A DNA stretch of 64,000 bases, taken from contig JADGKB010000023.1 in assembly GCA_027604185.1 (NCBI GenBank), forward strand, positions 1-64,000, in the 5' to 3' direction. Origin of the DNA: Boothiomyces macroporosus. Taxonomy: Eukaryota; Chytridiomycota; Chytridiomycetes; Rhizophydiales; Terramycetaceae. The translations under genes and the position numbers were made by a program. The notes under the pieces were generated by a model that made no database searches, was not told where the DNA came from, and saw only the letters and a program-made list of their open reading frames with translations. Shown here in pieces: positions 1-64,000 of the stretch. How positions within the stretch are numbered: position 1 is the stretch's first letter; each line of letters opens with the position of its first letter.

Positions 1-2
1 GT

Positions 3-746
3 GGTGCAACTACAACTGCTGCCAGTGGTGCAACTACAACCGCTGCTAGTGGTGCAACTACAACAGCTGCTAGTGGTGCAACTACAACCGCTGCTAGTGG
101 TGCTACTACAACCGCTGCTAGTGGTGCTACTACAACTGCTGCCAGTGGTGCTACTACAACTGCTGCCAGTGGTGCAACTACAACTGCTGCTAGTGGTGCA
201 ACTACGACTGCTGCTAGTGGTGCTACTACAACTGCTGCTGCTGGTACAACTGTTTACGGTGGTGCTGCCACTACAACTGTCCCAGCTACTACTAATGGAT
301 ACGCAGGTGCTGCTACTACAACTGCCCCAGCTACCACAACTGTCCCAGCTACTACTAATGGATACGCAGGTGCTACTACCGCTGCTACTACTACAACTGT
401 CCCAGCTACTACTAATGGATATGCAGGTGCGGCTACTACAACTGCCCCAGCTACTACCAGTGGATACGCTGCTGCAGCTGCCACTACAACTGCAGCCAAC
501 GCAACTGCGACTGGTAACGCAACTACAGCATACGGTGTTCAAACTACTGCAGCTGCGGGTAACTGGACTTCGACTGCCGGGTATACCACCGTCATTCCAG
601 TTATTACTACCACAGGGTACAATATGGCAACAACTGTTCCTCCAGTTGTTACCACTGCGGCGTACCAGACTACCACCGCTTCTTCTGCTCTAAGCATGTC
701 ATATATTGCATCAGCCTCATTATTACTTGCTTTCCTTTTGCTTTAG
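3..746 (+). CDS. Thr/Ala-rich surface (mucin-like) protein, 5' end outside window
   Basis: The coding frame is the one giving repeats of G-A-T-T-T-A-A-S, encoded by a 24-bp unit repeated about nine times in the first 240 bases. Less regular blocks of ATTT and TTNGYAGA follow. The C-terminus ends in a short hydrophobic tail (SYIASASLLLAFLLL) directly after a small-residue stretch (TASSALS), the pattern of a GPI-anchor signal. A conserved pre-tail block (VIPVITTTGYNMATT) is shared with the next gene, so the two are tandem paralogs. The N-terminus and any signal peptide lie before base 1. The protein is probably an O-glycosylated cell-surface or wall protein. That is inferred from composition, since no enzymatic domain is visible. 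The long open frames in the other two frames and on the other strand are by-products of the repeat. Confidence 0.7.
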   Translation, partial: GATTTAASGATTTAASGATTTAASGATTTAASGATTTAASGATTTAASGATTTAASGATTTAASGATTTAASGATTTAAAGTTVYGGAATTTVPATTNGYAGAATTTAPATTTVPATTNGYAGATTAATTTTVPATTNGYAGAATTTAPATTSGYAAAAATTTAANATATGNATTAYGVQTTAAAGNWTSTAGYTTVIPVITTTGYNMATTVPPVVTTAAYQTTTASSALSMSYIASASLLLAFLLL

Positions 747-1827
747 ATTCGTACCTTAAATAAATTGTTAAATCTAACATTGGGAAACTTCAAAGTTCTT
801 TTTAAAATTGTGTCCCTGACATACATAAACATAGAGCTTAGCTTTATTTTACACTCAAAATCTTTCATTTTTACCCTCTTGATTTTGATGAGCTCCTCAT
901 AAGCATTTACAGACTAGATCGTTTGGATAATCCACCAACTGGATGATAATAAGGTGAATCCATAGAGAACGTAACTCATATCCTTTATCCAAAATTTTAA
1001 CCCTCTTGACGACGAGACTGTCTACTCGAGAGTAAAGAATACTTGGCATTTTTACTCTAAACTCAAACAATAGGCGGCACACCTCAGTTCAAGTAAATAT
1101 TTCCTGCAGGTTGCAAAGGATAGTGTGTTAAATTCGATTAATAAAGTTTAACCTCAACCTGATCCTCAAATCAAGCCTGTACTATCAAACATATCTGTAT
1201 AATAGTCAAGTCAAAAACCGCTTCTGAGTAATCTAGAACTGCTAGTATCAAGACTACGTTTTCAAAGCGAATTTGGCTTCTCTGAAAGATATTTCATCAT
1301 GCACAGCTCCAAAAATCCTGCTTAAAGCGGAATATCAAATTGCAATGAATAATCTCCAGGTTTATGATTTTCCAAGATGTACACAGTCAATCTCAGCAGT
1401 AGCATCTGTGGATTTGAATTATTTATTGCAGCTGCAGCAATACTACTCTGTGAAATGATCCATCAACTGTTTTTAAATTGGAAGACAAAGAATTTAAGCT
1501 GCTCACTCTAGTAGTGCTACAATCTCTTCCTCTAAGAAACATGTCCCTAATCCAATCAATATATCTAGCTTTCGACCTAATCTTTTCATAAATTGGTTGT
1601 ACAATTGAATTTTGGAAATTAATGGGCACAATGATATCTACATTTCAATTATCAATCGCAACTACACGTAATTTATTTATCTGCTCCGATAATATTTTAT
1701 AATTTGTTGAAATTTCCAACTACGTGCAACTGATAAACATTACGTCACTTCAAACAAACTCACATCGGGCCAGCTTTAAAGATGACGTATAAAAATGCTT
1801 ACGCGATATTTTAATTAGCATTATCTA
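747..1827. other. Intergenic region, no gene recognised
   Basis: About 1.1 kb of AT-rich sequence between the two Thr-rich paralogs. Only short open frames without recognisable content are present. The last 90 bases hold the promoter elements described separately. Confidence 0.6.
1741..1795 (+). promoter_or_regulatory. Putative core promoter: inverted CRE-like half sites and TATA box
   Basis: TACGTCA at 1741-1747 and TGACGTA at 1783-1789 form an inverted pair of ATF/CREB-like half sites. The second overlaps a TATA box, TATAAAAA at 1788-1795, which lies 33 bases before the ATG of the Thr-rich gene. The function is inferred from motif resemblance only. Confidence 0.4.
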
Positions 1828-2463
1828 ATGAAATTCGCAGCTGTATTTTTAATAGCTATCTCTAGTGTTTATTCTCAATCTACAACAACCACAGCCGCTG
1901 CTGCTACTACCACTAACGCGTATGCAGGTACTACAACTGCTGCTGCCACTACAACTGTAGCTGCTACTACCACTAACGCATATGCTGGTGCCACTACAAC
2001 CGCTGCTGCCACTACAACTGTAGCTGCTACTACCACTAACGCATATGCTGGTGCAACTACAACCGCTGCTGCCACTACAACCGTCCCAGCTACTACCACT
2101 AACGGATATGTTGCAGCCACTACAACTGCCCCAGCTACTACCACTAACGGATATGTTGCAGCCACTACAACTGCCCCAGCTACTACCACTAATGGGTATG
2201 TTGCAGCCACTACAACTGCCCCAGCTACTACCACTAACGGATATGTTGCTGCCACCACAACTGCCCCAGCTACTACCACTAATGGGTATGTTGCAGCCAC
2301 TACAACCGTCGTTCCAGTCGTTACTACTACAGGATACAATATGGCGACAACTGCAGCTCCAGTTGCTACCACCGCACCATATCAGACCACTCCCGCTTCT
2401 TCAGCTCTAGCCAAGTCATGTGTTGCATCAGTCTCAGTTTTACTTTCTTTCCTTTTCCTTTAA
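1828..2463 (+). CDS. Thr/Ala-rich GPI-type surface protein
   Basis: A 211-residue protein in a single exon. Residues 1-17 (MKFAAVFLIAISSVYSQ) are a signal peptide. The mature part is almost wholly Thr, Ala, Asn, Tyr, Val and Pro, in units such as ATTTNAYAGATTTAA and later ATTTNGYVAATTTAP, the latter in about five near-identical 45-bp copies between roughly 2090 and 2310. The C-terminus (SSALAKSCVASVSVLLSFLFL) is a hydrophobic GPI-type tail. It matches the preceding partial gene in the block before the tail (TTTGYNMATT), so it is a tandem duplicate with diverged repeats. It is expected to be a heavily O-glycosylated surface protein. This is based on composition and terminal signals, with no domain match. 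The long antisense frame is a repeat artefact. Confidence 0.8.
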   Translation: MKFAAVFLIAISSVYSQSTTTTAAAATTTNAYAGTTTAAATTTVAATTTNAYAGATTTAAATTTVAATTTNAYAGATTTAAATTTVPATTTNGYVAATTTAPATTTNGYVAATTTAPATTTNGYVAATTTAPATTTNGYVAATTTAPATTTNGYVAATTTVVPVVTTTGYNMATTAAPVATTAPYQTTPASSALAKSCVASVSVLLSFLFL

Positions 2464-2527
2464 TCTGTAAGTCTAATAAATTTATTCACTGAACATTGGG
2501 CAAAGTTAAAGTTCCTTTATTGACTGT

Positions 2528-4098
2528 TTAAACATGATCTCCGTCTTCGTCCGAGTAATCTTCATCCATAACTTCATCCTGTGCTTCCTCGTCTTCATCT
2601 TCTATTTCCTCATCCTCCTCGACTTCAATAAGCTCCTTCTTTGCTGGCCCGCGTGGAGCGTTTGGGAAAGCGCGTTTAACTGCGGTATTGTCCCCCACAT
2701 TCCACAACACAACTTTTCCTTTACTGCCACCAACTGCAAGAACATAAGGTGAATCCGTCGAGAAGTTTGCGGAAAATACTTTACCAGCATCCAAATCTCT
2801 AGACAAAATGCATTTTGGTGTATCTTCGACAGACCACAACTTGACTTGTTTATCCGCTGAGCCAGTGACTAGAAATCCTGGAATATGTGGATTAATATCG
2901 AGGGCGGAAACTGCAGAGTCATGAGCATGTAGTGTGAATAAAGTTGTGCTTGGGTTTCGGGCATCAAAACATTTTACTATTCCATCTTCAGTACTAACCT
3001 AGGATTAAATTCAGTTACATAGAATCTTTCTCCATGATGCGGATCCCACTTTATGCATTCTACATCGGCAGTCAACTTCCATTCAGCAACCTTGTCTGCT
3101 TGTCTAGAATCGAAGCAGCAGGCCCTTTTGTCGTACCCTCCAGTTAATAGCGCAGTTGGTTCAAAGGTGTTCCATGCTACAGACTGGACCTTGTTTTTGT
3201 GATGTCCGTAGGATACCACAGCGATATCAGGTTTTTGAAGATCCCATAGTTTGACAGTAGTGTCGGCTGAACCAGTGGCCAATAAATTACGTTGCTTTCT
3301 ATTCCAAGAGATTGACATTACAGCGTCAACATGTCTTTCAGGCTGTGGACGTTTGGCCACTCTGGCTGGACCATGTTTCCCTTTTGTCGATTTAATAGAA
3401 GCAGACCCATCAGGGATTTTCCCAAGAATTACTTCAGGGAATACAGCATCAATTGTATCCAAATCCCAAATCTCAACTTGGGGGTCAAATGTTCCAATGG
3501 CGACATAGTTTCCTAAAGTTAGTTACTGTTAAACAAGATATCAGTATTCTAAAAGAATACTCCTCTTGAAACTTACCAGCTCCTTGACGGTCATGCTTTC
3601 TTCCAATGTGAAAGTCAAGCCATTCTAAACATAAAGGAAATGAAGGAAGCATAATATCATGATGCACGTAAAGGTTATCTTCTTCCTCTTCATAGACGTA
3701 GACTTCCAAGTAAGATACATCATCCTCTGTTTTACAGCCCAATAGCAAGTTATCAGAATCTTCAATCACAACTTCTTCTTCATCTTCCTCTTGCAGTTCT
3801 TGTTAACTCTTCATTTACCAATGTATGGGTCTTGCTCATTAGATTCATAGTACGCGAGCCCCTTGACATTTGAAAACATTGCTTGCTGATTAGTTTCCTT
3901 ATCATAATTTTCTAAATCGTACTTGTCTTCAACTTTTTCAGAGATATCCTCTTGTTCATTTTCCAATTCTTCCTTTGCTTGTTCCAATTCAATTCCCATT
4001 TGCTCTTGAATGCGAGCGTATTCCTCATCTGTTAAAACCAGCTTTTCTGGCTTGTTTTGAGCAGCGCCTTTTCTAACCCAAGCTAATGCTGAAATCAT
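2528..4098 (-). CDS. PWP1: PWP1 WD40 ribosome-biogenesis protein
   Basis: A 488-residue WD40 protein, complement of 3819-4098, 3577-3798, 3019-3512 and 2528-2998. The start (MISALAWVRKGAA) matches the conserved PWP1 N-terminus, followed by an acidic stretch and DPYI. The WD repeats include NYVAIGTFDPQVEIWDLD, LATGSADTTVKLWDL and LVTGSADKQVKLWSV. An acidic tail (residues about 455-488) ends the protein. PWP1 acts in the nucleolus in 60S subunit assembly and rDNA chromatin. Introns are 20 nt (3799-3818), 64 nt (3513-3576, unusually long here and containing a hairpin) and 20 nt (2999-3018). Removing the last joins HHGERFY to VSTEDGIVKCFDAR, which is the family pattern, so an apparent frameshift is really an intron. 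It lies head to head with the TMEM42-like gene, with 155 bases between the start codons. Confidence 0.9.
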
Positions 4099-4253: not shown

Positions 4254-4591
4254 ATGAGTTGGATGGCCTTGTCCATAGTGAGCGGTATCCTGGCTTGCTT
4301 GGCTTCAGTATTCAGCAAGTATCATTGATTTGATGTAGATTTATGCAGAAATATCCTATTGCGATTATACTGGTGATCCTTTCCAACCTCTTAATGTTCA
4401 AAACCTTTACGATGGCCCTTTCAAGGACTAGTACCATAAAAGCTACAGTACTCAACTCGGCGAGTAATATTATTAGCACTGGTTTGATTGGGAGTTTGCT
4501 TGGAGAACAAGTTGAACTCAAGTGGTGGTTTGGAGCGTTATTGATGGTTTCTGGGACCTTGATATTGAATAATAAAGAAAAGAGGGATTAA
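4254..4591 (+). CDS. TMEM42/EamA-like small membrane protein
   Basis: A 105-residue protein from 4254-4318 joined to 4339-4591. The 20-nt intron GTATCATTGATTTGATGTAG splits the first membrane helix. Spliced, it reads MSWMALSIVSGILACLASVF, then SKF, then about three more hydrophobic segments (YPIAIILVILSNLLMFKTF, NSASNIISTGLIGSLLG, WWFGALLMVSGTLIL). This is the layout of the TMEM42 / half-length EamA transporter family, with its conserved start (alanine/glycine-rich first helix and FSK) and the FKTFTMALSRTSTIKATVLN segment. Substrate and location are unknown. The reverse-strand frame over the first exon and upstream region shows no family features and is treated as a shadow. The recognition is by pattern, so another small EamA-like protein cannot be excluded. 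Confidence 0.75.
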
Positions 4592-4647: not shown

Positions 4648-6918
4648 ATGGAATCTCACGAACTCGTTCAAGAAATATCAAAATACAAGCCAGATATTCA
4701 CCTTGATTCACTTCAAATCCAACCGCTAACCAAGGAGCAAATGAATTCTGTAGAGCAAACCTTTCATGCTGCATTTGCGCTAGAATTGAAAAGGAATATC
4801 AAGTTGCCTCCAGCAATTCATGGTCTGGAGTCTGAAATCGACAGCCTGATCCAAAAGAATTTAAAAGGCGATTCTATATTGGGGGCCATTTCAGACCTTA
4901 ACAACAAAGTGGTCTCTGATATTCATGGGATCGTGAATAACGTATTGAATGAACTCTTGGCGGCAGAAATAGACAAAAAGAAAGCCGAGCTTGAAGCATT
5001 GCAAAACGACAGTTTAAAAGAAAAAGTAGTTGTATCAGAGACCGCTCCTGTAGATAACAAAATCAAGGAAACTGAAACCCCAATAGAAAAGAAAGGGACT
5101 GTGTCTTTCAAGGAAACCAAGGACAATACAGTGGATCGTGAGGATGACGAGATTACTGCCTCACAACACTCTTTAAATGAAGACACCCCTAAAAGGAAAT
5201 CTACCTTTGGAAGTGGTATCAGAAATATGCTTGGCCATTTAACCAAGCAACGGGCTCCAAAGCCAAAAAAGGGACAGCAGGCAGAAGAAAAGCATTCAGA
5301 AAAGCATACACACTCGAGCGTAGAAAATGCCAAAGTAGAGTCACCAAAAGTAGCTCAATCTCTCGCGGAACAACCAAAAGTTGAGCCAACTCTAGCCGAA
5401 TCACATCCGCAAGATCCTACTGTTCAAGAAGCAAAAACAGAACCGGTGAAAGATGGGAAAACAGAAATAGTTAAAGAAGCAAAGTCACAAGAAACTGAAA
5501 TAGAAGCAGTAGAGGAACACTTAGTTCAACCTAAACGGTATGTTCCAACGAATGCAATGTCAGCATTGGCATCTGCAATGAAATCTGGGTTGGGAGAAAA
5601 AGCGCGCTCTCATGGAAAATCAATAACTGATATGATTGAAAGTAAGTCCTCTGATGCTCCTGCGCAAATCAATCCTAGGCCAAATCCAAGCTCAAAACCA
5701 CGACCAGTAACCATGATTGAATTGAACTCAAATGCACCACCACCCATTAAACCACGACCAGTTACCTCAGTCGATGATAAATTGGATGTAGTAGGAGAAA
5801 ACAATGGTATATCCAACGATCAACCTAATACAGGTCATCTAAACACAAATCAGCAAGAGGCAGATCTGCCAGGCTCTACCGTGGGTGTGCCAGTATTACC
5901 CTCCAGACCAGTATCATATATTGATGACGCCCCGCCAATCCAACCTAGACCAAAACAGCAAGAACCTGAAAGACCGATTTCACAAAATGGATCAGCTGTT
6001 TTACCAAAAGTTCAACCCAGACCTATTTTGCATACTGACGATCCTCCAAAAGTTCAACCAAGAGTCAAGTCTCCAGAATTACCTGAAAGGCAAATGTCAG
6101 TCGAAAGATCTCTTTCTCAGGCAGATGAACCCCCAGCGACCCTTCCTCGTCCAAGACCACCAATTCTACCTGAAAGACAAACATCGGTGGACAGACCATT
6201 GTCGCATGTAGAAGCACCCACTTCTACTGATTCCCCAGTGTCTGAAAATGCACCTCCTCCAGTTACGCCTCGAGTGAAATCTCCACAGCTACCTTCAAGA
6301 CCTACTTCAGAAAACAGGCCATTATCTACCATAGACATTAACTCTGCTTCTTTGACGGTTGATGATGAAATAGTAAAATCTTTATAATGTAGCAAAATGC
6401 TGGATTGACAAAAGAAGAAATTGCCAGAAACGAACTCGCAAGAAAATCTCTGGCTAGACCCGCCAGCTCTCCAAAACCAGCTCCAATTCCACCTGCAAAA
6501 CCTCTGGTAATAAAGAAAAAGGAAAACAGTACCAGCGGTGATGATAAAGCTATTGAAAAGGCTATTTTATACTAATTCAGAAAGCACTCGAGTGGCTAAA
6601 CAAAAATTTGCAATCTCATGGCATTGAATTGGATAAACTGGACATTTCTGACGGTCTAACACTTATATATGCACTTGAGGTACTCTTTATTAATGTAGAA
6701 TCAAACTGGCCAAAGCGTTGGCAAGTATAACAAGAAAGCTGTGATGCAGGTGCACAAGATGGACAATATTGCTGTCAGTTTGACTTTTTTATCCAAACAT
6801 GGTGTAAATACATCATTCCTGACTCCCAGAGGTACAAGAAACTAACATAGATATCTTGGAAGGAAACAAGAGCAAAATTCTAACCCTTTTCACCTACATT
6901 TTGAAAGAATTCTCATAA
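4648..6918 (+). CDS. Proline-rich protein with C-terminal calponin-homology domain
   Basis: A 730-residue protein from 4648-6372, 6393-6560, 6581-6679, 6699-6831 and 6851-6918. The N-terminal 130 residues look helical. A long charged, low-complexity centre follows, with repeated SH3-ligand-like motifs (PIKPRPVT, PIQPRPK, KVQPRVKSPELPER, TLPRPRPPILPER). The last 130 residues form a CH-like domain: KALEWLNKNLQSHGIELDKL, DGLTLIYALE, GKYNKKAVMQVHKMDN and DILEGNKSKILTLFTYIL. The CH part is split by introns of 20, 20, 19 and 19 nt. The second starts with GC rather than GT. A single CH domain next to PxxP motifs suggests an actin-cytoskeleton adaptor, but that is inference. The start is the first ATG, at 4648; the frame is open further upstream without ATG. 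It ends only 21 bases from the convergent uridine kinase gene. Confidence 0.75.
6561..6580 (+). other. Putative GC-AG intron of 20 nt
   Basis: GCTATTTTATACTAATTCAG interrupts the CH-domain gene with an in-frame stop (TAC TAA). Removing it joins AIEK to KALEWLNKNL in frame. It has the usual length and the CTAAT branch-like motif but a GC donor. No GT alternative of normal length restores the frame. Confidence 0.6.
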
Positions 6919-6939: not shown

Positions 6940-8407
6940 TTACATTCCAAAATATCTTTCTAAAAAGTTTCCGTATCCTCCTTTGATTTCGTTTCCGTCT
7001 TCAATTTGATATTCCTCAACTGAAGCTGTAATGATTTTGACTTGAGGGAAAGCTTTGTGCAGTGCAGTAATGCCAGTCTTTGTGGTCATCAAAGAAAGTA
7101 AAATGATGTTTTCCTGCTTGACTTTATGTTCAAGCAGTATCTTGATTGCCATTAGTGCATCTCCTCCAGTAATAACTTCAGATTGGGCAAGTATAATATG
7201 CTTGGAAGCTATATCATGCGGTAACTTTTGGTATTGAAGGCTAGGTTCGTTTTTGCTAGAGTTTTCAATCAAGATTTTGCCTATTGGAATGTCTTTGATT
7301 ACTTTTCTTAGACTCTGTTCCATTGGCTGGCCTCCTGGAACAATCGAAACTGCCACCAGTTGTGATTTACTGGCTTTGCCACCAAAGGAGGATCCAGTAG
7401 GCGTCTTGACATCAATATGTTCATATTCCATGTGGTTCAATCCTCTAAAATTAAAGATAAATACTGTTCAACTAACATTCGAGATAGCCGATCAGCATGG
7501 AAAACAAAATCAGGTCTAGTTGTGGTTTTGTCTTTCAAGATTGTTTGGATAGAGATCAATTGTGGTTTTTGTTCCAGTAGTTGAACATTTGGGGTCAACT
7601 CTGGTAAAAGCTCTGAGATTTGTCCATTCAAATTCACTCCCCTTTCATCCAATTGGCGTTGTACATGCTTGATTATAACATCTATTGCGGCAGAGTTATC
7701 CAATCCTCTCGGAATGATGACTATGTGAGAATTCGTTTACCATCTGCATACTTCATTGTTGGGAAAATGTATTCGTCGAACGATGGTTTCACAAATCTAT
7801 TGTATTGCTGCAATACTCCTTTTGCATCTCTCCCTCTTTCAGCAATGTCCCTTCTTAATCTACGGCATAATCTTTTTAGCATTCAACTACCTCACATCAG
7901 CATCTGTGTCAACAAATAACTTCATGTCCATCAAATCCCTAACTCTCTTGTCATACAATGCGAATATTCCTTCGAAAATTATAACATTGGCGCCATAGCA
8001 TGGCGTAGTTTCTTTCAATCGAGAGTGAGTTGCAAAATCGTATACTGGCACATCCACCTTGTTTCCCTTTTTTAAATCCTCCAAGCAGCTGAATAATTTG
8101 TCATAGTCAAAGGCATCTACATTATCAGAGAGTACCTGGGTGATCAAAGTCAAATTCGTTCCTATGTGCAGCTGCGATTTGCTCAGGGTTCAAACTATTG
8201 TAAAAGGAATCCATGCAGAGAAGAGATACCCATGGCACTCCCAGTTGTTTGATAATGCGGTCTAGATAAATAGAAAGTTACTGGAAACTGAAGTCTTTCC
8301 CGACGCAGTTCCACCAGCAATACCAATGATATAAGGCTTGAGCGAAGTTCCATTTGAGTTGAACCTGGTATTAGTATTTATAACCATGGCAGTTTTCCAG
8401 CTGACAT
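6940..8407 (-). CDS. URK1: Uridine kinase with C-terminal UPRT domain
   Basis: A 449-residue protein, complement of 8385-8407, 8282-8364, 8136-8261, 7891-8116, 7741-7871, 7465-7720 and 6940-7444. The six introns are 19 or 20 nt. Residues 20-35 hold the P-loop ([12 protein letters not shown]). Next come the MDSFYNSL and FDHPDAFDYD motifs of uridine/cytidine kinases, the [20 protein letters not shown] helix and the nucleoside-kinase C-end. From about residue 240 a uracil-phosphoribosyltransferase-like domain follows ([39 protein letters not shown] end). It phosphorylates uridine and cytidine in the pyrimidine salvage pathway. In this family the UPRT part is usually thought not to catalyse. Intron 1 begins at an ATG-GT junction, so an unspliced message could start at that ATG in frame and still make nearly the same protein. 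Confidence 0.93.
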
Positions 8408-10938: not shown

Positions 10939-13900
10939 TTAGTGTCCGTTAATCTGTAAATGCTGTTGGATTCCTCCTGGCAAATGATTCGCAGCCCATT
11001 CCTTTGCTTTGTCAAAGAGTGTGCCCAGGATCGGAACTTTTTCCAAATCAATGCCAAATACTTCCAGCTTCAAGTGACTAATGATGTATCCAATAAGAGG
11101 AACCAGCTGGCTCAAAAGGCCTTCGGAAGAAAACTGACTGAGAATTTCATTGAACCACTGGATTTGATCGCTTCCTCTTTCGAAATGAATATGCGGGTAG
11201 AAGCCTTTTCCTTCAATTAGGTCAATGATTGTATTGACCAGGGTTACAGGATTGAGATCGCTCCATGGGAGTTCAATAACAAAAATACCAATATTTGGCG
11301 GCCCAGCCATACTGGTTTCATTTCCACCATCAGGTTTGTTCAAGATTACTAATCCATCATCAGTTGTCTTGAAAGTCAAAAGAGTATCTCCACCACCATT
11401 GTTCAAATCTACAAATATTCTACCAACGTCAATATGAACAATTGTGGGATTCAAGAAGCCAACATCGATTTGGATTGGCAAATCAAAGCCGTGTCCGTTG
11501 AATGGCCAATGGGCCAAGATATCAACATTAATAGGTGGAATAAAGTACAACGGCCTTCCATGAATTGTTCCACTTCCGAATAAATCAAGTCTTTGTCCAT
11601 TGCTTCCTACCATCACCAATTTAGTTAGTCTAGCATTTTCACTAAACGATTGGAAATTCAAGATTCGCAGTAGACAGTCTGCCATTGGCCGCACGATTCC
11701 AACCTTTGGATCCATGTTTGGAATTGCCATCAAGTGAATATATGGCAGCTTGAATACATCAATAGTTATATCAAATGCATCATAAAAGAATCCAGTCCCG
11801 CCAACTTGATATGCCATTTGTATTTCAATAGCCGACAGCAAGAATGTCAAGTTGAATGGTGGGTTAACTGCTTGGATATCAACGTCCACACCATCTTTTA
11901 CCAGGACTGCATTAATATACTTGAAATCAAACGGTTTGTTTTCTTCAAAGAACGTCCATATCCAGTCAACAGGCTTGTAAAGGTCTTGTGAAATGGAAGC
12001 ATCAGCTAGAATTCTGATTGGAGATTTGGCATTGGCACCAAATTCAATACTCTGAACAGTCAGTGTTTCACTGAAGCTAAAATCAGTATGGAACAAGATT
12101 TCATCAACAGCTGCAATTATTGCTGCTGCTGTATCTGGCTCGCTAGTATAGCTGATATTTGCATTCAATGTCAGCATTTCATTTGTTGCATACATGTTGA
12201 AAAGTCTGGCGTGCACAAAGTCTTTGTTGTTGAAAAGGGCTTCTGTGTGGACATAGGGAATATTCAACCTAAAGTCTGTTGAAATACCTTTGAGTGCCAC
12301 CCCCAAATCAAATGCCATGGTGATTGGATCCAGGATATCATATGTCAGCCTTTCAAAGGCGACCCCTAAATTGGCCGTGAATGATGAAACTGGGCCCTTT
12401 AGCTGATTTATGAGTGCACCAAGATCAAAATTTGCAGCTACTTTGGCCAAAGTGTCAATTATGTTTTCAGGGGAATTATCAGACCCAAAAAGGATACCAA
12501 TTCCACCAATTGAATTTGAAATTGCTGATCCCTGGTATAAGTTGTTGGCCAGGACAGCGACATCCGCTCTACCAGCATCATTTTCAATGAACTTTACCAT
12601 GTTATTCAAGTCCATTTCCAAATGATTTGAGATGGTCTTCACCGATAATCCCGAATTTACAGCTACATCTAACAATCTAAAGTTAGCGGAATCATTACTG
12701 GTTATTGTCCAGCGTAATCTTGAGAGCTGCATAGCCAATATCAGCTTCAATAGGAATGGATACATTGTTCAACCCAACGCCCACATCTGCGGAAACAATA
12801 TTTGGGACAGAGCCGTCAATATGGGCTTTACTAACACTGAAATTGTCGATTAAATTTTTCGAGTTTGAAAATTGACCCAAGTTGAGCTCTTTGTAAATGA
12901 AATTGATCAAATCTTGATTGAATATTGACGCTGGAGAAATATTTAGAACAACTTTTGAGAAAAGCTTCAAAACAGAAGCTTGATCGTGGCCAAACACGAG
13001 CTCCTTCACTAAAAGAGTTTCTTTGACATTAGGCAGTCCATTTTGGATAACATCTAGTACAAACGCGGCAGCTTTGTCCTGAATAGCTTCGGCAGACGGG
13101 AAATTGATAATCGTCTGTAGATTCAAGGCATTGTGAGGATGTGCAATCGACAAACCTTGCGGACCAACAACTCCTATCATTGGAAGATCATCTAAACCTA
13201 TTTGAACTCCGAAATATCCAAAGCCAGAAAGAGAGAAATTCAAAGGAATGTCAAACGAGCCCTGAATCAATGCTCCCATATTCCTCTTTGGCAAAGTTTG
13301 AACCAACATCTTTTGCAATTCCAAATTGAGCTTGTTCAGGAAGTTTGAGAGTGAAGGCACACTTCCAGATCTCCATGTCGGAACAAACAAATCTGCAAAC
13401 TTTTCTAAAAGAACATGTGCATCCAACTCCTCAAATGTGTCAATTACATTTGCAGGGGTTTCATCATATCCAAACATTGGCCCTCTAACCCCAATTGAAC
13501 CTGGAATATCTGCTTTGTTCAAAATTGCAGTCACGACATTGCTGATATGATTTTCTAGCTCGTCAGAGTCAAAGAATTTTACAAGTGACTGGAGGGCAAG
13601 ATGATTTTGTCCTTTTCCAGTAACTTTAACACCTGTTACAGCTACATTCAATAAATCCATTTCATCTAAAGCAATGCTGGACGTAAAGTAGGGCATGTCA
13701 AGAGAGATTTGGAATGGCATCAAGATATTTGCCCCAATAGCCGCATTAATATTGCTGTTTTCCACAAAAGTAGCATCCAAGTTCTGAACTTGAACTTGAT
13801 CAATAATTTGGGACAAATTAAAGCCCATATTTGAAACTATCTGCAATGCTGCATCCAAAGTATTTTGATTGAGAATGGAAGATGATTTCGCTCCAATCAT

Positions 13901-51041: not shown

Positions 51042-52179
51042 TTAACAATTAGTTTTTGGAATAGAATCAAAATAATCTTGATTAAATATGTCTGGCCATC
51101 TACATTATAATGAATTACCGCTCATTGACCTTGTAATTAATAGAACCAAACTTGTACCGATTACAACCCTTTTCGCCTCCATAGTCAAAGTCCATTCCAC
51201 CCAAGTAAAATAATGGTATGGAGTAGTAGTCTAGCTTTGCACAGTTCTTTCTTCCTTTTAGTCCGTTGGTATGTAAGAATAGCGGCTCATTATCAAACCA
51301 TTTCTGTAGCATTGCGTAACCACACATTCCATTATTGTAATCCCCTACTTGTGTTATCACATACGGAACTGTATTGTACTTTAAGCCCAATGCATCGGCT
51401 GATAAATGAAATGTATCTTTATCTCCATATAGCATCCTCTTGTCTTGCTGATACTTGTCGTGCTGGGTTAAGTAAGTTGATAATCTTAATGAATGGTAAT
51501 GAATAGATTTGTTTACCAGGAACTGTCCAGATTCTTTTTCAAATTCAAAATGGCAGGGTAAATCTAGTATTTTGTAAAGTGGTGTTGAACACTTGTTTAT
51601 AAAATTGTCTTTCCATACTGCATTAATATGAAATACCAATCATTCCGGTGGATTTGAATTCTTCCGAATCAAAAATGAAATCCGGTTTCCTTAACACCAA
51701 GTTATCTTGATCCAGGAATAATACGTTTTCAAATCAATCATTAAATACAAATACCTGGATTGTATAATCGCCAAGTTCTTGTAGTAAAATGGCTTTATGC
51801 TGTTTGATCCTTCTTGAAATAAATATCCTTCAGTTTGGAATTCCTTGTATTCCACATTCAGCAAATCAAACTTTGTGAATTCATTCTTGTTGTAAAACAC
51901 CTGTATTGGTAACTGTGTTTTCAAATGGTTCTGTAAATGGTTCAGATACAGTACAGTCAAGTTAATTGATTTATCAGTCAATGTCATTACTATCCCATTT
52001 CCACTGAATTTCGGTATCGGTTCTTTTAGGATTTCGGATTTTGTTTTTGTGAATTCTTGTTTTAGCTCCGTATATAGTTCATGAGTTGCCCAGGACTCTT
52101 GTTTAAATCTAAGAGTGTATACTGTTACCAGAACTATAGAAAAGAAAACCAAATATTTTAGGATTCTATTTCTTCTCAT
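51042..52179 (-). CDS. MNN-type Golgi alpha-mannosyltransferase
   Basis: A 359-residue protein, complement of 51755-52179, 51637-51734, 51119-51617 and 51042-51099. It is a type II membrane protein: MRRNRILKYLVFFSIVLVTV is a basic N-end and signal anchor. Family motifs are GNGIVMTLTDKSINLTVLYL, KPFYYKNLAIIQSRFENVLF, LDQDNLVLRKPDFIFDS (the DxD sugar-nucleotide site), ESGQFLVNK and MLYGDKDTFHLSADALGLKY. This is the MNN2/MNN1-like family that adds mannose to N-glycans or mannoproteins in the Golgi. The last exon ends RWPDIFNQDYFDSIPKTNC. Introns are 20 nt with an apparent GT-TG end (51735-51754), 19 nt and 19 nt. The first is essential: SR-FENVLFLDQDNL carries the catalytic motif. Confidence 0.85.
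51735..51754 (-). other. Putative GT-TG intron of 20 nt in the mannosyltransferase gene
   Basis: On the minus strand GTATTTGTATTTAATGATTG. Removal joins LAIIQSR to FENVLFLDQD in frame, rebuilding the DxD region. No AG acceptor within normal length restores the frame. The end TTAATGATTG parallels CTAACGATTG in the ABCC gene. Confidence 0.6.
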
Positions 52180-53466: not shown

Positions 53467-56400
53467 ATGTGGACGACAAAAGATATCGGAACGCACTCCA
53501 TATCATCAATAATCACAAACAACGCAATTGAAACTCAGGCGATCCAACCCACCACTTTGCGCAAAGTATTAAACAGCGAATTTGAACCTTACCTGACTTC
53601 CATTTCTCGTGTTATCGATAAATACCAACTACACAAGGCGCTAGGACAAGGAGCTTTAGACGGGATACCTGATTTAGATGACGAAGAAGAAGAAAAAGTA
53701 TATGAAGAATTAAACGCTGTTCTTTTGCTAAAAGTAAATAATTTTAATTCAGGTAAACAAAAGTATGGATAAACTGAATAGAACCAGGATGCTATCTTCC
53801 AGTAAGCAACTCAAAAAAGTGCCGCCTATATTTTCAGACCCCAATTTCCAAATATCCAATCCTAATATATTTTCAGAAATTACAGAATACAAGGATATAA
53901 TCCAACAAAACAGCAACGATAATCACTACAGAGTTCTTCAAGATAAGCTGGTTCTCTATTCAGATACAATTCAAGTGCAGTTACTCAAGGAAATCGGAAA
54001 TAGAAGCGCGTCGTTTTTTGGCGCACTGAACAACCTGCAATATTTGGAAAAAGAATCTCAAGATTGCTTGGAAAAGATTGAAAACTTGAGAGCAAGCTTG
54101 CAGTTGATCAAACAGGAAAATGTTTTGAGTAGTCTAAAGATTGTTGAAACTTTACAGACCAAGAGCAACTGTTGCGTTCTATATGGGGCGGTTAAACTGG
54201 TTTCCTCCATCAGACATGCGCAGCCATTGATCAAGGAACTTATCAATCAAAATGATTATTTGGGCGCCTTGGACTTGGTTCAAGATGTAGACAATTCTTT
54301 AAAAGGTCATGAAGAGTCGATTCCATCAGAAGAAATAACCAGAGGAATATCCGTAATGAAGCACACCTCTATAATCCCAAAGAATCTTGATTTAAGAGGC
54401 ATTAATGCTATTGCAAACTTTTCCTCTCAGCTCATGGAAGTCAAACGACAAATTGCCAATTGTACAACCAGCGCATTTTCCAAAGTTCTTACAGACTACT
54501 TGTCACGGTATCTGGACGGTTACAAGGACACAGTTTCTGGGAAAGAAGCCACGTTTGAAAAGTGTATAGCCAGTATCTTGAATGAAGAATATCTGACAAC
54601 TCCCAAAGAGAGGATTCTAGGTAAACCAACAGACAGAGAAAAGGAGCTGAAAACCAATATAAGCCAGCTCATGATATGTTTGTTGAGATTGGATAGGTTT
54701 GATTCAGGGGTCAACAAATACAAGGAAAAGGTGATTGTTCTAATGAAAACCTTTACCAAGAGATACTATCCAATCCCTCCTGAATTCTATGAAAAGATTA
54801 GGGAGCAGGTTGAAAAGCCAGAAAAAGAGAGATCCAAGTCTACCGAAGATTTGACAAAAAAACCTGGAGAAGCAATTGCGGAATCCCCAAAGAAATCTTC
54901 AAAGGAGCAATTATCGCAGCAGCAAAAGGTCTTGATTGATCAAGAGCTCTCAAAACAAATCAAGCAAATGACTTTTCCCCAGTTTTACAGGACTATTGTT
55001 AACCTTTCTATATTTTATATTCAATATCTATCAAAGCAAGCTACAATTAACGAGATTTTAATAGATATCTTGAAAGGAGCCCAAGAAAGAAAAGTGCTGA
55101 TTGGTTGCGATAAACTTCCGAACGATACTAAAGATGAAATGATAATTGACCAAGAAGAAGAAGATATAGGTATACGAAAGTTGACGTAGGTATTTCCACA
55201 GTAGATTTACTGGCACAAAAAGATCCTATTGACAAAAATGCATATTCGCAAACAACTACAGATATAAACAATGTATTAAACAATTGCGCAGATATCATGC
55301 ACGCCAGACTAATGAAACTATTGACATTCAAAAGCGATCAGATTCAAAATCTGAATCCAAAAGACTTTTATAGACTTTTCTGTTGCGTCTATGAATTTGT
55401 GAATTCATCCGAAACTATTTGTGGAAGAATGTGCTTTGGTTTAAAAAGTATTTGGTTACTAAAGTAGGTGGGATTTTATCGCAAGCGAAATCCTTCATCA
55501 ACAACTTCCATGAAGAAAAGAGCAAGCAAATTTCACTCTTGCTGGAAAACGAACAGTGGGTACAGGCAGATATACCAATAGATTTTCAATACCTTATTGA
55601 GCAACTGCAAAATAAGACTTTTAAATCCAGTATGGTGAAAACACCTGACAATGGATCAATTGATTTGACGCAAATGGCAAGAAAGCAAAATAGCAGTGAG
55701 TCAATGAAAGGAGAAGCTAGTAGTAATTACCTGGTGGTTGATGGGCAAAAATACTATGCAGTTGTGTCTGTCCTAATGTTCCTAAAAATGCTTACTGATT
55801 ATATAGAATGTTGTCAAAATATTACTGTGCTAGTTCCTGAAATTATAAACAGAATATTTGAATCTCTCAAAGTAAAACTAGCTAACATAGCTGTTTAATT
55901 CCAAAGTATGCCAGTTAATTCTCGGTGCTGGTGCAATCAGGTCGGCTGGACTGGACAATATTACAGCCAAGCATATTACATTAGGGAGTCAAACTCTTGG
56001 TCTGGTAATGGCAATGATTCCATACATTAAAGATGCCTTGTCAGAGTTGCTGAATGCCAGACAGTTGGTTTTACTGAACGATTTCGAAAAGATTTTGAGG
56101 GATTACAAAGATCATCAAAACGAATTGTTTGTAAACTTGATCAACACTATGAGTGAGCGATCGGCTATTCATGTTCAAACAATTGCTAGCATAAATTGGG
56201 ATACACCTGAAGAAAAGGATATGACTGCAGAAGGAATTTCCCAGCCGATATATCAACTAGTTACTGAAACATCTACTCTGCACAAGCTCTTGTCAAAATA
56301 TCTGCCGCTGGAAAGCACCAAAGTAACAATTACTGATATAGATGATTATGCAAAACGTCTTTCAAATATACAACAAGAAGCTTGAAGAAGAGTATAAAAA

Positions 56401-56897: not shown

Positions 56898-57532
56898 TTA
56901 TATTAAGTTTTTGGTTTTAACCTCAAACTTGTGTTTGTGGTCTGCAGGATTAGCTGCTATTTCGTAGTTGGTAATGACAGGGTCGCGGTTAATCTCGGTG
57001 TATTCCCCTTTGAATCCAATATAAGAAATAACAGTATGATCAGCACCAAAGTTTCCTGGAACGAAGATGGTGATATCGCGAATGTTTGTGAATGTTGTAA
57101 CTTTGGTCAAGTACTGGGGAACAGCTCCTTGAGGGCAACTTTGCAAGCATTCAAATTCTTGAGTTGGCTCGATACCTTCTACAGTATCAAAATCTACATC
57201 TTGACGATTTATATAGACTTTGAGCTTTCTCGGTTGCGAATCATCATTTAATCCTAGGAGAGCAATAGATTTCAACTTTACACTGCTGGTAAACGGGATA
57301 TACATGATCAGCTGTTCATCCGCATCGCTCTTGAGCACTTTGGTAGTATCAAATCGATCGTCCCAAGGCTTGAATATATCATTAAAGGACCTAGATTAAT
57401 CAAAAAATACTCTTCGTTTTCGGCGTTTAGGCAAGTGGTAGAGTTGAGGTCAATTTGGGAGTAAAGAGACATCTCAGCCCCTTCATCAACGATATGGTCG
57501 CATCCGCTGTGATCTGAAGAATTGCACGGCAT
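56898..57532 (-). CDS. PITH-domain protein (PITHD1-like)
   Basis: A 204-residue protein, complement of 57411-57532 and 56898-57390, with a 20-nt intron. It starts MPCNSSDHSGCDHIVDEGAE, then SLYSQIDL. Spliced, it has EESFNDIFKPWDDRFDTTKV, LIMYIPFTSSVKLKSIALLG, PRKLKVYINRQDVDFD and a final YTEINRDPVITNYEIAANPA. This is a full-length PITH domain (proteasome-interacting thioredoxin C-terminal type) standing alone as in PITHD1. Such proteins associate with the 26S proteasome; the exact role is not settled. Splicing rebuilds the conserved IFKPWDDR, which strongly supports the intron. Confidence 0.9.
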
Positions 57533-59642: not shown

Positions 59643-60638
59643 ATGAATTTTAAATCCCTATTTGCAGTATTTACTTTTGCATTAGGACAAACTAACCCTT
59701 ACTTGCCGGGACAAAACGGAGAAAACAAAGAATTGTGGAAGTTTGGTGCAAGCCCTGCATTTGATGAAAACTTGCACATCTTTGTGCCAAAAGATAATAG
59801 CGATACGTTTCCATTGGTATTGTTCTTTTCTGGGTTCGGTTCTAACCTTCCAACTGCAGCCTATTCTGAAGTACTCTCTGAAATGGCAAGCAAAGCTCAT
59901 GGAGCTGTGGTTGTCGCTTGGGACGGGCTCACCGAAAGCAATCCATTGGATATGCCAGGCATTCTTGCTAGAACCAACAAAATATTGGAGTTTTGCCAAA
60001 CGAAGCTGCAAGATTACATCAATGCCAATTTCGCCAACAAAGCTGTAGTTGATCCATCTAGATTGTTTTTTGCAGCACATTCTTCTGGGAACCAGATTGC
60101 TGTAGAAATGGCATTGTCTAACCCTTCTTTGGGAATGATTTTGTTGGACCCTGTCGACTCTGACCCAGTCAAGATGACTAAACCAGTCATAAATGGAACT
60201 GTTGCTTATGACAAACCAGTGATGGTTGTCGCTTCTGGCCTGTGTGAGGTTAGCGGCATCAACCTTGGTAAAGTATTTCCACCATGTTGTCCACCTGGCT
60301 TCTCTTCCCAACACTTTTATGATGCATTTACTAATGTTCCTAAATACATGTACACAGTAACCGACTATGGTCATGCAGATCTCCTATCCCCAAATGCTGC
60401 AGCTTGGGCTGCCCATTTCTCTCACTTTTGCGCTTCAGTTGCTGATCCAAACAAGAACCCGTTCGACAGTAAACTATTTTTAACGCTAGATTATAGAAAC
60501 TTTATTTCTGGTGCCGTCTCGTCTTTCATTTCACTCTACGGTTTTGACGATTGTGGGTACAGCAAATATTTGACTGATTCCTCCTACTTTGACACGAATG
60601 TAGCCTTTGGAAACGCCAACTTGGATAGATGCCAATAA
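59643..60638 (+). CDS. Secreted chlorophyllase-like alpha/beta hydrolase
   Basis: A 331-residue protein from the ATG at 59643, which gives a signal peptide (MNFKSLFAVFTFALGQ). An in-frame ATG at 59622 would add MVRKSLT. The motifs LVLFFSGFGSN, FFAAHSSGNQIAVEMAL (nucleophile serine in H-S-S-G-N), MILLDPVDSDPVK and DYGHADLLS (histidine) follow the order of plant and algal chlorophyllases (GHSRGG, LDPVDG, ...H). The serine, aspartate and histidine needed for ester hydrolysis all have candidates. The first glycine of GxSxG is replaced (A-H-S-S-G). It would cleave the ester side chain of chlorophyll or another bulky ester outside the cell. This is a family-level call; the substrate is unproven. 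Cysteine pairs in the C-end suit a secreted protein. Confidence 0.7.
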   Translation: MNFKSLFAVFTFALGQTNPYLPGQNGENKELWKFGASPAFDENLHIFVPKDNSDTFPLVLFFSGFGSNLPTAAYSEVLSEMASKAHGAVVVAWDGLTESNPLDMPGILARTNKILEFCQTKLQDYINANFANKAVVDPSRLFFAAHSSGNQIAVEMALSNPSLGMILLDPVDSDPVKMTKPVINGTVAYDKPVMVVASGLCEVSGINLGKVFPPCCPPGFSSQHFYDAFTNVPKYMYTVTDYGHADLLSPNAAAWAAHFSHFCASVADPNKNPFDSKLFLTLDYRNFISGAVSSFISLYGFDDCGYSKYLTDSSYFDTNVAFGNANLDRCQ

Positions 60639-60702: not shown

Positions 60703-62263
60703 ATGCAACTATCAGTTACACAGAATAACCAGAAATCCAAATCGTCAGGATTCAAAAGCTGCAGCAGCATTTCCTGCACCCGTGTCGTTCCGTCCCCAAA
60801 GGAATCGGATAACACTCCCCAGTATAGTTACTACAAGAGGGAACTACCAAAAATTTGTACAGGATTTACTTCACCAGAAGGACGACAGATGTTTAGACAG
60901 GCATTAAATGATGTGTATATGGAAAGTTATTTTGAATTATCTCAACATTTCTTGACACAGTCTGAACCAGCATTTTGTGGATTATCGTCGTTATGTATGG
61001 TTTTAAATGCTTTGGGTGTGGACCCTTTACGACAATGGAAGGGTGTATGGAGATGGTACGATGAATCAATGTTGGATTGCTGCAGACCGCTCGATCAAGT
61101 AATTGTGAATGGTATAACGTTACCAGAGTTCAGCTGCTTGGCTAGATGTAATGGATTGGAAAGTTCATATAAAACAGCTGATCAGACGTAAAGCTTACTA
61201 ATGCCAGGACCAAAGAAGACTTTTTGATCGACTTGATGAATTCGTGCAAAAGCCCTGGAGAAGTAATGGTGGTTTCATATTGCCGCAAAACACTTGGGCA
61301 AACGGGCGACGGCCATTTCAGTCCCGTTGGAGGGTAAGTAATCCTTGATGTAGGTACAATCCCGAAACGAATACCGTGCTAATTTTAGATGTTGCACGAT
61401 TCAAATACCCATCATATTGGGTTCCATTCGAAATACTATGGTAGATATCGCCTAATCACAGGGAATCGCTGTTTCCTATAGACTCTGAAACTCAAAAACC
61501 GCGCGGTTACTCAATATTGAAAAAGAAGGAAGAAAAGAAGGAGGCAAAGCCGCTAAGTCACTTGAGTGTAGACACATTCTCTTGGAAAGCTTTAAAAGCT
61601 GTCATTTTTCAAGATCTCCCAAAGGAAATTGGAAAGTTGTCACCAGAAGCAACGATTAACGACCTGATCAGCACCATAATTAAAACTATCCCGGAAAAAT
61701 ATGACACAGTTGTTGAAAATAGAGTTTTCTTGATGATACCAAAGGATGGCGGTATCCCATGCGCTTCTTCGCGAATCCAGACTGATTCAGATGAAGCAAT
61801 CAAGAGCTATCTTAAGAGTTTAGACCAGTTGCTGATTGACTTGTCTAAATCAAAACTATACGACTACATAAAAAACAACAATGATTTGCGAATTCGTAGA
61901 TTGCTGATAGAGAATCACCACTTGTTGGATATACAAGAAAGTGCGGTAACAATGTCGCCTCAAATTGGTCGCATTTCCAAGGCAGACCGTAAAATGTCCA
62001 GACAGTTTTCCAGGTCAGACACTCGATCGTCATTTGCTGATTTGGTCCCACTGCCAGATGCAGATATAGACGACTTTGTAGCCTTTACAACTCTATTTTT
62101 CTATACACTTTTAACATATTCAGAACTGTTCTCAGACCTTGGAAACGATAGAATTTTGAATGAATTGAACAATCTGTCCAAAGAACCATTGACTCCCCTG
62201 ATCCAACAAGAGGTATTTCTCTTGAAGAAACAGATTGAAATATTAAATGATGAGTACAGTTAG
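60703..62263 (+). CDS. PCS1: Phytochelatin synthase
   Basis: A 499-residue protein from 60703-61187, 61208-61333, 61354-61440 and 61462-62263, with introns of 20, 20 and 21 nt. The start is the first ATG in frame (60703), 65 bases after the esterase stop. The catalytic domain is complete: YYKRELPKICTGFTSPEGRQ, FLTQSEPAFCGLSSLCMVLN (active Cys), WKGVWRWYDESMLDCCRPLD, GQTGDGHFSPVGG (active His) and LILDVARFKYPSYWVPFE (active Asp). The C-terminal half is charged and poorly conserved, as in the family. The enzyme joins gamma-Glu-Cys units of glutathione to make phytochelatins that chelate cadmium and other metals. Splicing at QT-TKEDFL, VGG-YNPET and LW-ESLFP restores the family sequence, so all three introns are secure. 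Confidence 0.94.
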
Positions 62264-62326
62264 TAATATATTAGTAGTTCTTTGTTTTTTATCGACCTGC
62301 AAAACGTCACCAAATTTTAATCAAAC

Positions 62327-63205: not shown

Positions 63206-63327
63206 TATTCAAATATTGCTTTGCACCTAATTCATCACAGTAGTGGGCTGGCTAATAATAATGACGAACAATTTTCATTGTTTGTTTCCAAAATAAATAT
63301 TCTTGCTCTAATATTTAGTTTATTGAA

Positions 63328-63480
63328 ATGGACAGCGTCACATTAACATCAGTGTCTGTAATAGCAATTACATTTATTTTGCTTGTTGGTGAAGCCGGAT
63401 ATTTATCTCGGGATCTATTATCTGTCCGAATCGACCGATATTCTTATCTGCCCAACTCGTGCATTTACGCTACTAGCAAG
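63328..63480 (+). pseudogene. Truncated duplicate of the preceding multi-pass gene
   Basis: MDSVTLTSVSVIAITFILLV, then GEAGYLSRDLLSVRI, matches the start of the preceding gene (MDNPTIASVVVISFTFILLV, then FQAGYYAKSTLELRI). Similarity stops after the first helix, and the frame then runs into unrelated sequence just before the methyltransferase gene. It is probably a duplication relic; a tiny functional peptide is less likely. Confidence 0.6.
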
Positions 63481-63530
63481 CTTGAATATATAAACAAACC
63501 ACGTGATGTTGCCATTTTTTATTTTTTTGA

Positions 63531-64000
63531 ATGGAAAATATTGAAGAATTGAATGCATCCAAGCTAGGCACTCTAGAATACTGGGACACCTTGTACCAAA
63601 AAGAAGTAGAAAATTTCAATGATTTTGGAGACGAAGGAGAGATCTGGTTTGGACAAGACTCTGCTGAACGCATGTGCGAATGGGTACAAGACAATCTCCC
63701 TTCTTCCACGTCAATTCTGGACTTGGGGACAGGAAACGGACATTTATTATTTGAATTACACTCTATGGGGTTTACGAATTTGCTTGGAGTTGACTATGCC
63801 CCTAATTCAATTGAGCTTTGTAAAACTATTGCAAATGATAAAGAGATGGAGATTGAATTCAAAGTAATGGATATCCTACAGCCAGTTGGTTTGCAGTTTG
63901 ACTTAGTGATGGATAAGGGAACGTTTGATGCGATTTCACTCTCAGAGATAAAGGAAAAGAAACCAACCGAGCAGTATGTAGAGAGTGTTGGCAGGTTGGT
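63531..64000 (+). CDS. EFM4: eEF1A lysine methyltransferase Efm4 (METTL10 family), 3' end outside window
   Basis: The first 156 codons are present and open to the window edge. The start MENIEELNASKLGTLEYWDT, then LYQKEVENFNDFGDEGEIWF, then GQDSAERMCEWV is the family N-end (K-LGTKxYWDxxY..E..NF...GD.GEIWFG). The SAM-binding motif is SILDLGTGNGHLLFEL. Next come GVDYAPNSIELCK and FDLVMDKGTFDAISLS, the family post-motif blocks. The enzyme methylates a lysine of translation elongation factor eEF1A. No intron is needed in this part. The divergent remainder (C-end) is missing. Confidence 0.9.
   Translation, partial: MENIEELNASKLGTLEYWDTLYQKEVENFNDFGDEGEIWFGQDSAERMCEWVQDNLPSSTSILDLGTGNGHLLFELHSMGFTNLLGVDYAPNSIELCKTIANDKEMEIEFKVMDILQPVGLQFDLVMDKGTFDAISLSEIKEKKPTEQYVESVGRL

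Follow-up and report, generated by a model that had tools for sequence, protein, structure and literature searches.

The first 64,000 bases of contig C23 of Boothiomyces macroporosus (Chytridiomycota, Rhizophydiales, Terramycetaceae; assembly of 15,203,306 bases in 216 contigs), hereafter the window, carry genes interrupted by very short segments which are, with high confidence, U2-type spliceosomal introns shrunk to a near-minimal form set by two distances. They have the GT-AG ends of U2-type introns, the adenosine of a putative branch motif occupies position 14 or 15 of the intron, more rarely 16, and the end lies 5 or 6 nucleotides (nt) beyond, so that two distances that hardly vary add up to lengths of 19-22 nt. 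In ordinary introns the distance from 5' site to branch site is variable.

The length class is apparent in gene models of several kinds. A Viterbi gene finder that scored codon pairs, required GT-AG ends, charged introns a flat cost and allowed 12-150 nt was run on a 264-kilobase (kb) sample, i.e. the window plus 200 kb made up of the first 10 kb of each of 20 contigs; 32 of its 104 introns measured 19-22 nt, against 7/96, 2/81, 3/91 and 3/107 when the coding model was left unchanged and the ends were replaced by the decoys TG-GA, CT-AC, GA-TG and AT-GA, respectively. No comparable peak appeared at any other length in this range, either in the GT-AG or in the decoy runs. In a second run (the motif run), whose splice-site weights had 32 introns of 18-23 nt from the window as seed, 153 of 238 introns fell at 19-23 nt (42, 68, 27, 13 and 3 for 19 to 23, respectively) and none at 15-18 nt, though lengths from 15 nt upwards carried no length term; within the window the short class comprised 40 of 59 introns. 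A third run, which penalised introns above 24 nt, barred those below 18 nt and is not independent of length, placed 53 of 56 window introns in the 19-23-nt range, 42 of them with a length of precisely 19 or 20 nt; some of the 56 are doubtful, as marked in the lists below. Nearly all introns thus differ by no more than a few nucleotides in length and stay under about 25 nt. These figures come near the 65 and 53 of 67 introns reported in a first-pass annotation of the window, whose claim of near-uniform tiny introns is borne out; introns of 21 and 22 nt, however, belong to the class rather than being exceptions to it, and at least one longer intron, of 64 nt, seems real.

Besides their length, the introns share a compact set of motifs: in the motif run the consensus is a 5' GTA (often GTAA) followed by a T-rich stretch, the putative branch motif TTRAY and a final YAG. 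We compiled a two-distance histogram of GTA followed by TRAY and the first YAG after it on both strands of the 264 kb, taking an order-4 Markov sequence as expectation. Five neighbouring cells, written as branch adenosine position and tail, stood out: (14,5) with 51 vs 3.8, (15,5) with 42 vs 2.0, (14,6) with 39 vs 3.0, (15,6) with 34 vs 3.6 and, weakest of the five, (16,6) with 17 vs 3.4; in a search over tails of 4-8 nt, 138 of the 153 short introns of the motif run fell into these cells. Under the fixed spacing, 213 GTA 5' ends were counted in 295 kb vs 18.5 expected, while none of 13 other 5' trinucleotides exceeded 1.3-fold in the same 295 kb; GC 5' ends showed no clear excess (GCA 29 vs 21.8, GCT 21 vs 20.5, GCG 9 vs 9.0, GCC 9 vs 11.8). 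Typical 5' splice sites carry G at +5. A +5 G is not favoured here, since only 16% of introns have G at this position and 44% have T; of the last exon bases (position -1), 44% are G. The five bases ahead of the final AG are free of AG in 145 of 153 introns.

The pattern extends over the whole genome. GTA..TRAY.YAG exceeded its reversed counterpart both in the 200-kb sample (31 vs 4 at 19 nt, 30 vs 5 at 20 nt) and in the window (20 vs 3 and 12 vs 0, respectively), and GTA..TRAY..YAG did so in the 200-kb sample (30 vs 3 at 20 nt, 29 vs 0 at 21 nt). Genome-wide, the strict pattern GTAAN{7,8}TRAYN{1,2}YAG was found 6,439 times (3,204 forward, 3,235 reverse), against 518 (263 and 255) for the reversed control. 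Given that 52 of the 153 short introns in the motif run conform to this pattern, the surplus of 5,921 corresponds to an estimated total of roughly 17,000 introns, whereas the modelled density (153 in 264 kb) gives an estimate of about 9,000. Within the 264 kb the strict pattern has 99 matches, of which 52 are modelled introns, 12 are uncalled segments in sense orientation within gene models, 3 are antisense to a gene and 32 fall outside gene models; the scarcity of antisense matches suggests a low background. The first annotation's proposal, a fungus-like genome whose introns are almost all of 19-20 nt, is therefore supported, the host being a chytrid.

Further evidence came from a homology-only alignment of protein profiles to genomic DNA, in which gaps of 1-100 nt with any ends were permitted. 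Profiles comprised 119, 88 and 119 relatives of TRP2, UCKL1 and U2AF65, respectively, proteins named Boothiomyces being excluded. TRP2 required two gaps (19, 19), both on GT-AG introns, UCKL1 six (20, 20, 19, 19, 20, 20), all on GT-AG introns, and U2AF65 nine, three of which (19, 20, 19) lay on such introns. Together, 11 of the 17 gaps coincided with a GT-AG segment of equal length within 5 nt, and all 11 measured 19 or 20 nt. The features of the two genes that lie in the window are as follows; in this and the later list the basis is a gene-finder model unless another is given.

6940..8407, minus strand: UCKL1 gene (uridine-cytidine kinase-like 1), six introns of 19-20 nt; spliced protein of 449 residues equal to P0241
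8365..8384, minus strand: UCKL1 intron 1, 20 nt, GTT 5' end; homology-only alignment, absent from the gene-finder model
8262..8281, minus strand: UCKL1 intron 2, 20 nt; gene model and homology
8117..8135, minus strand: UCKL1 intron 3, 19 nt; gene model and homology
7872..7890, minus strand: UCKL1 intron 4, 19 nt; gene model and homology, one run having a 31-nt alternative
7721..7740, minus strand: UCKL1 intron 5, 20 nt; gene model and homology
7445..7464, minus strand: UCKL1 intron 6, 20 nt; gene model and homology
30912..32386, minus strand: TRP2 gene (anthranilate synthase component I), two 19-nt introns
32175..32193, minus strand: TRP2 intron 1, 19 nt; gene model and homology
31491..31509, minus strand: TRP2 intron 2, 19 nt; gene model and homology

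Spliced from the start at 8407, UCKL1 is letter for letter the deposited protein P0241 of a sister strain, Boothiomyces sp. JEL0838; our gene-finder model had missed the first of its introns. Spliced TRP2 is 98% identical to a protein of the same strain, and its next named matches are chytrids, at 63-67% over full length, with shorter models from Globomyces (75%) and Kappamyces (70%). The first annotation had also held that ordinary gene finders fragment every gene here. This does not apply to UCKL1 of JEL0838, whose deposited model removes all six tiny introns, but three other deposited proteins do lack conserved residues. P0001 (TRP2, JEL0838) is without RYSFIGSC, which relatives carry as RYSFIG or similar, a gap that would fit the choice of a 43-nt intron in place of the 19-nt one. 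P0121 (U2AF65, B. macroporosus) is without MFLLPCHLLK, which has close counterparts in Globomyces and Kappamyces, and fuses U2AF65 to a ribosomal L24-type protein, the two being separate in our models (L027 433-910 and 1119-2551). P0242 (UCKL1, JEL0866) is without a stretch kept in P0241. Public gene models of such genomes can thus err beside tiny introns, P0001, P0121 and P0242 being short of conserved residues and P0241 right. Conserved residues are likewise missing from the TRP2 and UCKL1 models deposited for Globomyces sp. JEL0801 and from the partial TRP2 model for Kappamyces, and judging by these gaps both genera may carry tiny introns too.

Several observations weigh against reading the segments as a uniform class of tiny introns. 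The first bear on the possibility that they are sequencing or assembly insertions, or artefacts of the gene finder, with no biology behind them. Plain GTA..YAG is weak in the window, where 116 occurrences at 19 nt compare with 54 in shuffled (Markov) and 80 in reversed sequence and other lengths also exceed the shuffle threshold, by smaller excesses; in the 200-kb sample it has no excess at all (197 at 19 nt and 209 at 20 nt, against 218 and 206 in reversed sequence). A count that barely, if at all, surpasses that of reversed sequence speaks for an artefact, as does the fact that the segments are known here from genomic DNA; the signal needs the branch motif, and we therefore replaced the plain count by the branch-motif tests given above. 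In addition, the histogram contains isolated cells at (82,5), 15 vs 4.0, and (41,5), 12 vs 2.0; the (16,6) class stands out poorly from reversed sequence (in the 200-kb sample, 15 vs 10); six of the 17 homology gaps (4, 2, 8, 10, 7 and 18 nt), all in U2AF65, are without GT-AG ends; UCKL1 intron 1 departs from the GTA rule by starting with GTT; and a 24-nt intron modelled in U2AF65 is exon in the deposited P0121. Nonetheless, the 6,439 strict matches against 518 for their reversed control, the fixed branch-site spacing and the recovery, on removal of six segments, of the exact UCKL1 protein deposited for another strain all stand against an artefact, which we consider extremely improbable.

A further difficulty is that 85 of the 238 introns in the motif run exceed 23 nt. 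They scatter over 24-150 nt with at most three per length and several of them hold the short-intron motif; from this thin spread and these internal motifs we read most of them as exon-skipping errors, although some could still be real and a few longer introns may stand beside the tiny class. The 85 would also fit a mixed set, compatible with our favoured explanation, in which the tiny introns are real but accompanied by a sizeable minority of ordinary 40-150-nt introns blurred by the models, and so would the 64-nt intron at 3513-3576, which was chosen in two gene-finder runs and keeps a WD-repeat gene open. However, the flat run has no peak above 23 nt, the two-distance histogram of the 264 kb contains no other group of neighbouring cells, and GTA[AT]GT combined with CTAAC, TTAAC or CTAAT before YAG at 24-200 nt is found only 16 times vs 55 in reversed sequence. 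We thus regard such a minority as unlikely.

The genome encodes components of the major spliceosome: U1, U2 and U6 small nuclear RNAs (snRNAs) together with Prp8, SF1, U2AF65 and Isy1- and Cwc25-type proteins. A single U1 snRNA on contig C34, matched over 163 nt, scored 68.8 bits, 0.7 below the gathering score of 69.5, and its 5' start, AUACUUACCUG, is canonical. Two U2 snRNA genes (C80:60682-60874, 142.2 bits; C178:9607-9797, 135.4 bits) differ mostly in their 3' halves and both carry the canonical GUGUAGUAUCUG, and one U6 on C59 has the canonical UACAGAGA. Prp8 (PROCN, 774.8 bits) and SF1 (114.6 bits) are over their cut-offs, as are the Isy1- and Cwc25-type matches. The U2AF65 gene on contig C2, with HK103_002678 of B. 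macroporosus as best match and relatives named U2AF, reached 230.7 bits in a match that reads across introns and four stop codons, below the cut-off of 310.3; it is kept though the gap between branch site and acceptor leaves almost no room for a polypyrimidine tract. In the Isy1 model, residues 1-42 do not align to human ISY1, though the Pfam match starts at residue 16, at position 4 of the profile; its first intron is atypical, being 22 nt long and ending beyond two earlier CAGs. RED is required for short introns in human cells, according to the relevant part of PMC6692369. No match to its family PF07808 was found in an exon-by-exon search, which is weak for a gene cut by tiny introns and was also silent for the control.

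Minor-spliceosome (U12-type) introns were considered and rejected, the 5' GTAA followed by a T-rich stretch and the branch motif TTRAY differing from the consensus of that class. We also considered that the segments might be removed otherwise, either from DNA, like the internal eliminated sequences of ciliates, or by ribosomal bypassing. Some ciliate eliminated sequences are short, uniform, AT-rich inserts in coding sequence, and the present inserts, which are short, uniform and AT-rich (G+C 0.28 in the motif run) and lie in coding sequence, resemble them. On the other hand, GT-AG ends, a branch motif at a fixed distance and canonical U1, U2 and U6 boxes fit splicing, and fungi are not known to have a separate somatic nucleus. 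Removal by either of these routes therefore seems scarcely credible.

If the segments are spliced out of RNA in the cell, as the spliceosomal interpretation predicts, U1 and then U6 would read GUA(A), U2 would read UURAY (TTRAY shows by eye partial complementarity to GUAGUA of U2) and the YAG 5-6 nt past the branch adenosine would serve as acceptor, yielding a lariat with a loop of 14-15 nt and a tail of 5-6 nt. For the human B complex, the part of PMC6692369 that treats it estimates that about 52 nt are necessary from 5' site to branch site, with a 14-nt U2 helix. In B. macroporosus only 12-13 nt separate the first G from the branch adenosine, and the extended human B-complex helices could therefore not both form, which would imply shorter contacts or sequential occupancy; likewise, U1 and U2 could hardly share one such intron as they do in human A and B complexes. 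It is tempting to speculate that a fixed molecular ruler (14-15, then 5-6 nt) largely defines these introns, and that in consequence the spliceosome assembles on them without U1 and U2, or the long U6/5'-site and U2/branch helices seen in the human B complex, ever being present together, with no need for the loss of the Gly-rich N-terminal plug of Cwc25. We put this forward tentatively, as a possibility on the less probable side. The Cwc25 of B. macroporosus appears to keep the plug: its predicted N-terminus, MGGGDLNLKKSWHP, equals residues 1-14 of human CWC25. The N-terminal position of the plug depends on a start chosen by homology, namely an internal Met where the CWC25 match begins, the gene-finder model running 43 residues further upstream via a 21-nt intron. 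Should this start be right, a loop of 14-15 nt would exist alongside the plug, and plug loss would be no general price of very short introns. The ruler reading, if true, would accordingly counter the general form of the steric-clash idea proposed for Stentor, discussed below. In any case, introns far below the presumed human splicing limit mean that this fungus may show the smallest piece of RNA that can be spliced, a question then open to study in a fungus and not just in a ciliate or a relic nucleus.

The remaining introns of the window are listed with position, strand and description.

4319..4338, plus: 20-nt intron, small membrane-protein gene, GTATCATTGATTTGATGTAG; spliced open frame, absent from the gene-finder model
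57391..57410, minus: 20-nt intron, PITH-domain gene, GTATTTTTTGATTAATCTAG
61188..61207, plus: 20-nt intron, gene named PCS by the first-pass annotation
61334..61353, plus: 20-nt intron, same PCS gene, GTAAGTAATCCTTGATGTAG
61441..61461, plus: 21-nt intron, same PCS gene
6373..6392, plus: 20-nt intron
6507..6580, plus: 74-nt intron, doubtful, one model; 20-nt GC-AG alternative at 6561-6580
6680..6698, plus: 19-nt intron
6832..6850, plus: 19-nt intron
3799..3818, minus: 20-nt intron
3513..3576, minus: exceptional 64-nt intron, 5' site GTAAGT, branch CTAAC
2999..3018, minus: 20-nt intron; one run had a 65-nt alternative
12677..12698, minus: 22-nt intron
15952..15972, minus: 21-nt intron
17309..17331, minus: 23-nt intron
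18183..18202, minus: 20-nt intron
18903..18922, minus: 20-nt intron
19046..19070, minus: 25-nt intron, doubtful, one model
23593..23612, plus: 20-nt intron, weak gene model (score 6.7)
23726..23745, plus: 20-nt intron, weak gene model (score 6.7)
23889..23908, plus: 20-nt intron, weak gene model (score 6.7)
25140..25158, plus: 19-nt intron
25509..25529, plus: 21-nt intron
25747..25765, minus: 19-nt intron
26281..26299, minus: 19-nt intron
26640..26660, minus: 21-nt intron
26906..26926, minus: 21-nt intron
27074..27093, minus: 20-nt intron
27202..27220, minus: 19-nt intron
29124..29144, minus: 21-nt intron
35030..35050, minus: 21-nt intron, ABC-transporter-like gene (by eye)
37520..37538, minus: 19-nt intron, ABC-transporter-like gene (by eye); one run had a 94-nt alternative
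39441..39459, plus: 19-nt intron
40284..40303, minus: 20-nt intron
42236..42254, minus: 19-nt intron, joins open frames of 622 and 653 residues
45160..45180, plus: 21-nt intron
45624..45643, plus: 20-nt intron
45811..45829, plus: 19-nt intron
46095..46114, minus: 20-nt intron
46458..46476, minus: 19-nt intron; one run had an 88-nt alternative
46562..46581, minus: 20-nt intron
46863..46881, minus: 19-nt intron
50482..50500, minus: 19-nt intron
51100..51118, minus: 19-nt intron, weak gene model (score 9.5)
53734..53752, plus: 19-nt intron
55170..55189, plus: 20-nt intron
55448..55467, plus: 20-nt intron
55872..55890, plus: 19-nt intron
56323..56341, plus: 19-nt intron; one run had a 34-nt alternative nearby
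60469..60489, plus: 21-nt intron, doubtful, one model; frame open without removal

Three junctions proposed in the first annotation, at 4319-4338 and 61334-61353 on the plus strand and 57391-57410 on the minus strand, each read as a 20-nt GT-AG segment; the latter two were also called by our gene finder, and the first lies outside its models, yet its removal leaves one open frame. The 64-nt intron at 3513-3576, in a gene that is PWP1-like by eye, is the clearest exception to the tiny class and has a strong 5' site. The idea that longer introns are structured was rejected: this one could form a 45-nt hairpin leaving a 19-nt path, but the fold is ordinary (z -1.39, 17 of 200 shuffles doing as well), and folds below -9 kcal/mol are not commoner among observed motif pairs than among those in Markov sequence (104/448 vs 134/602). 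Neither did we find evidence of selection for in-frame stops, which occur in 23 of 27 introns divisible by three and in 78 of 126 others, since the gene finder favours divisible-by-three introns when stops are present.

Other features of the window include a 2,693-residue gene model, some stretches of which look repeated, at 10939-19151 (minus strand; introns of 20-23 nt plus the doubtful one of 25), two threonine/alanine-rich tandem-repeat proteins, mucin-like by eye, at 1-746 and 1828-2463 (plus), and two near-alike small proteins at 8881-9594 (plus) and 52403-53116 (minus) with the stretch NICSLASHELVESITDKGYGQATSFAFPVGWYDLQNGE in common, the former without a Pfam match. The intron-less predicted proteins at 20616-21545 and 58112-59338 (both plus) are also without a Pfam match, and an intron-less open frame at 59643-60638 (plus) matches the chlorophyllase family (PF07224, 84 bits). 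Elsewhere in the assembly, two pairs of matches have equal scores (C49:3542-3652 and C100:5137-5247; C20:74242-74502 and C20:119309-119569), which suggests duplicated or uncollapsed assembly stretches.

Introns of comparable size are known from very different hosts, and the following comparisons refer to the parts of the cited papers that describe introns and spliceosome. Ordinary fungal introns share with the present ones GT-AG ends in a fungal genome but are about three times longer, those of Cryptococcus neoformans, termed relatively short in a fungal survey, having a mean of 63 bp (PMC8476143). Among the matches listed, no publication describing introns of the present kind in chytrids or any other fungi came up. 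Mikrocytids have very short introns of 16-17 nt with a narrow length range and conserved sequence (224 in Mikrocytos mackini), yet they are intracellular parasites with a much reduced spliceosome, and their introns are backed by transcripts, unlike those of B. macroporosus, for which DNA is the source (PMC10245619). The nucleomorph of Bigelowiella natans has 865 introns of 18-21 nt in a relic genome of 373 kb (PMC6461891), in agreement with the comparison drawn in the first-pass annotation; length range and the ACAGAGA of U6 are alike, but its U1 and U5 are shrunken and, in the account given there, a 5' splice-site motif is not identifiable, whereas the genome of B. macroporosus is fungal, of 15.2 Mb, with its U1 matched over 163 nt. 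A further likeness is to the ciliate Stentor coeruleus, whose introns of 15-16 nt, present throughout the genome, are also GT-AG, of near-constant length, with a GUA 5' end, a fixed branch adenosine, a 5-nt tail and, on the side of the snRNAs, canonical U1, U2 and U6 boxes (PMC9505925). In Stentor, however, the branch adenosine is at 10-11 rather than 14-15, the described branch site is without the strong consensus that TTRAY provides here, and Cwc25 is without its Gly-rich N-terminal plug, a loss that the authors proposed as a way of avoiding a steric clash (PMC9505925), while the N-terminus predicted for B. macroporosus is as in human CWC25. The host, a ciliate there, is a fungus here. The introns of B. 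macroporosus are thus of the same kind as the 15-21-nt introns of heterotrich ciliates, mikrocytids and a chlorarachniophyte nucleomorph, now in a fungus with ordinary snRNA boxes.

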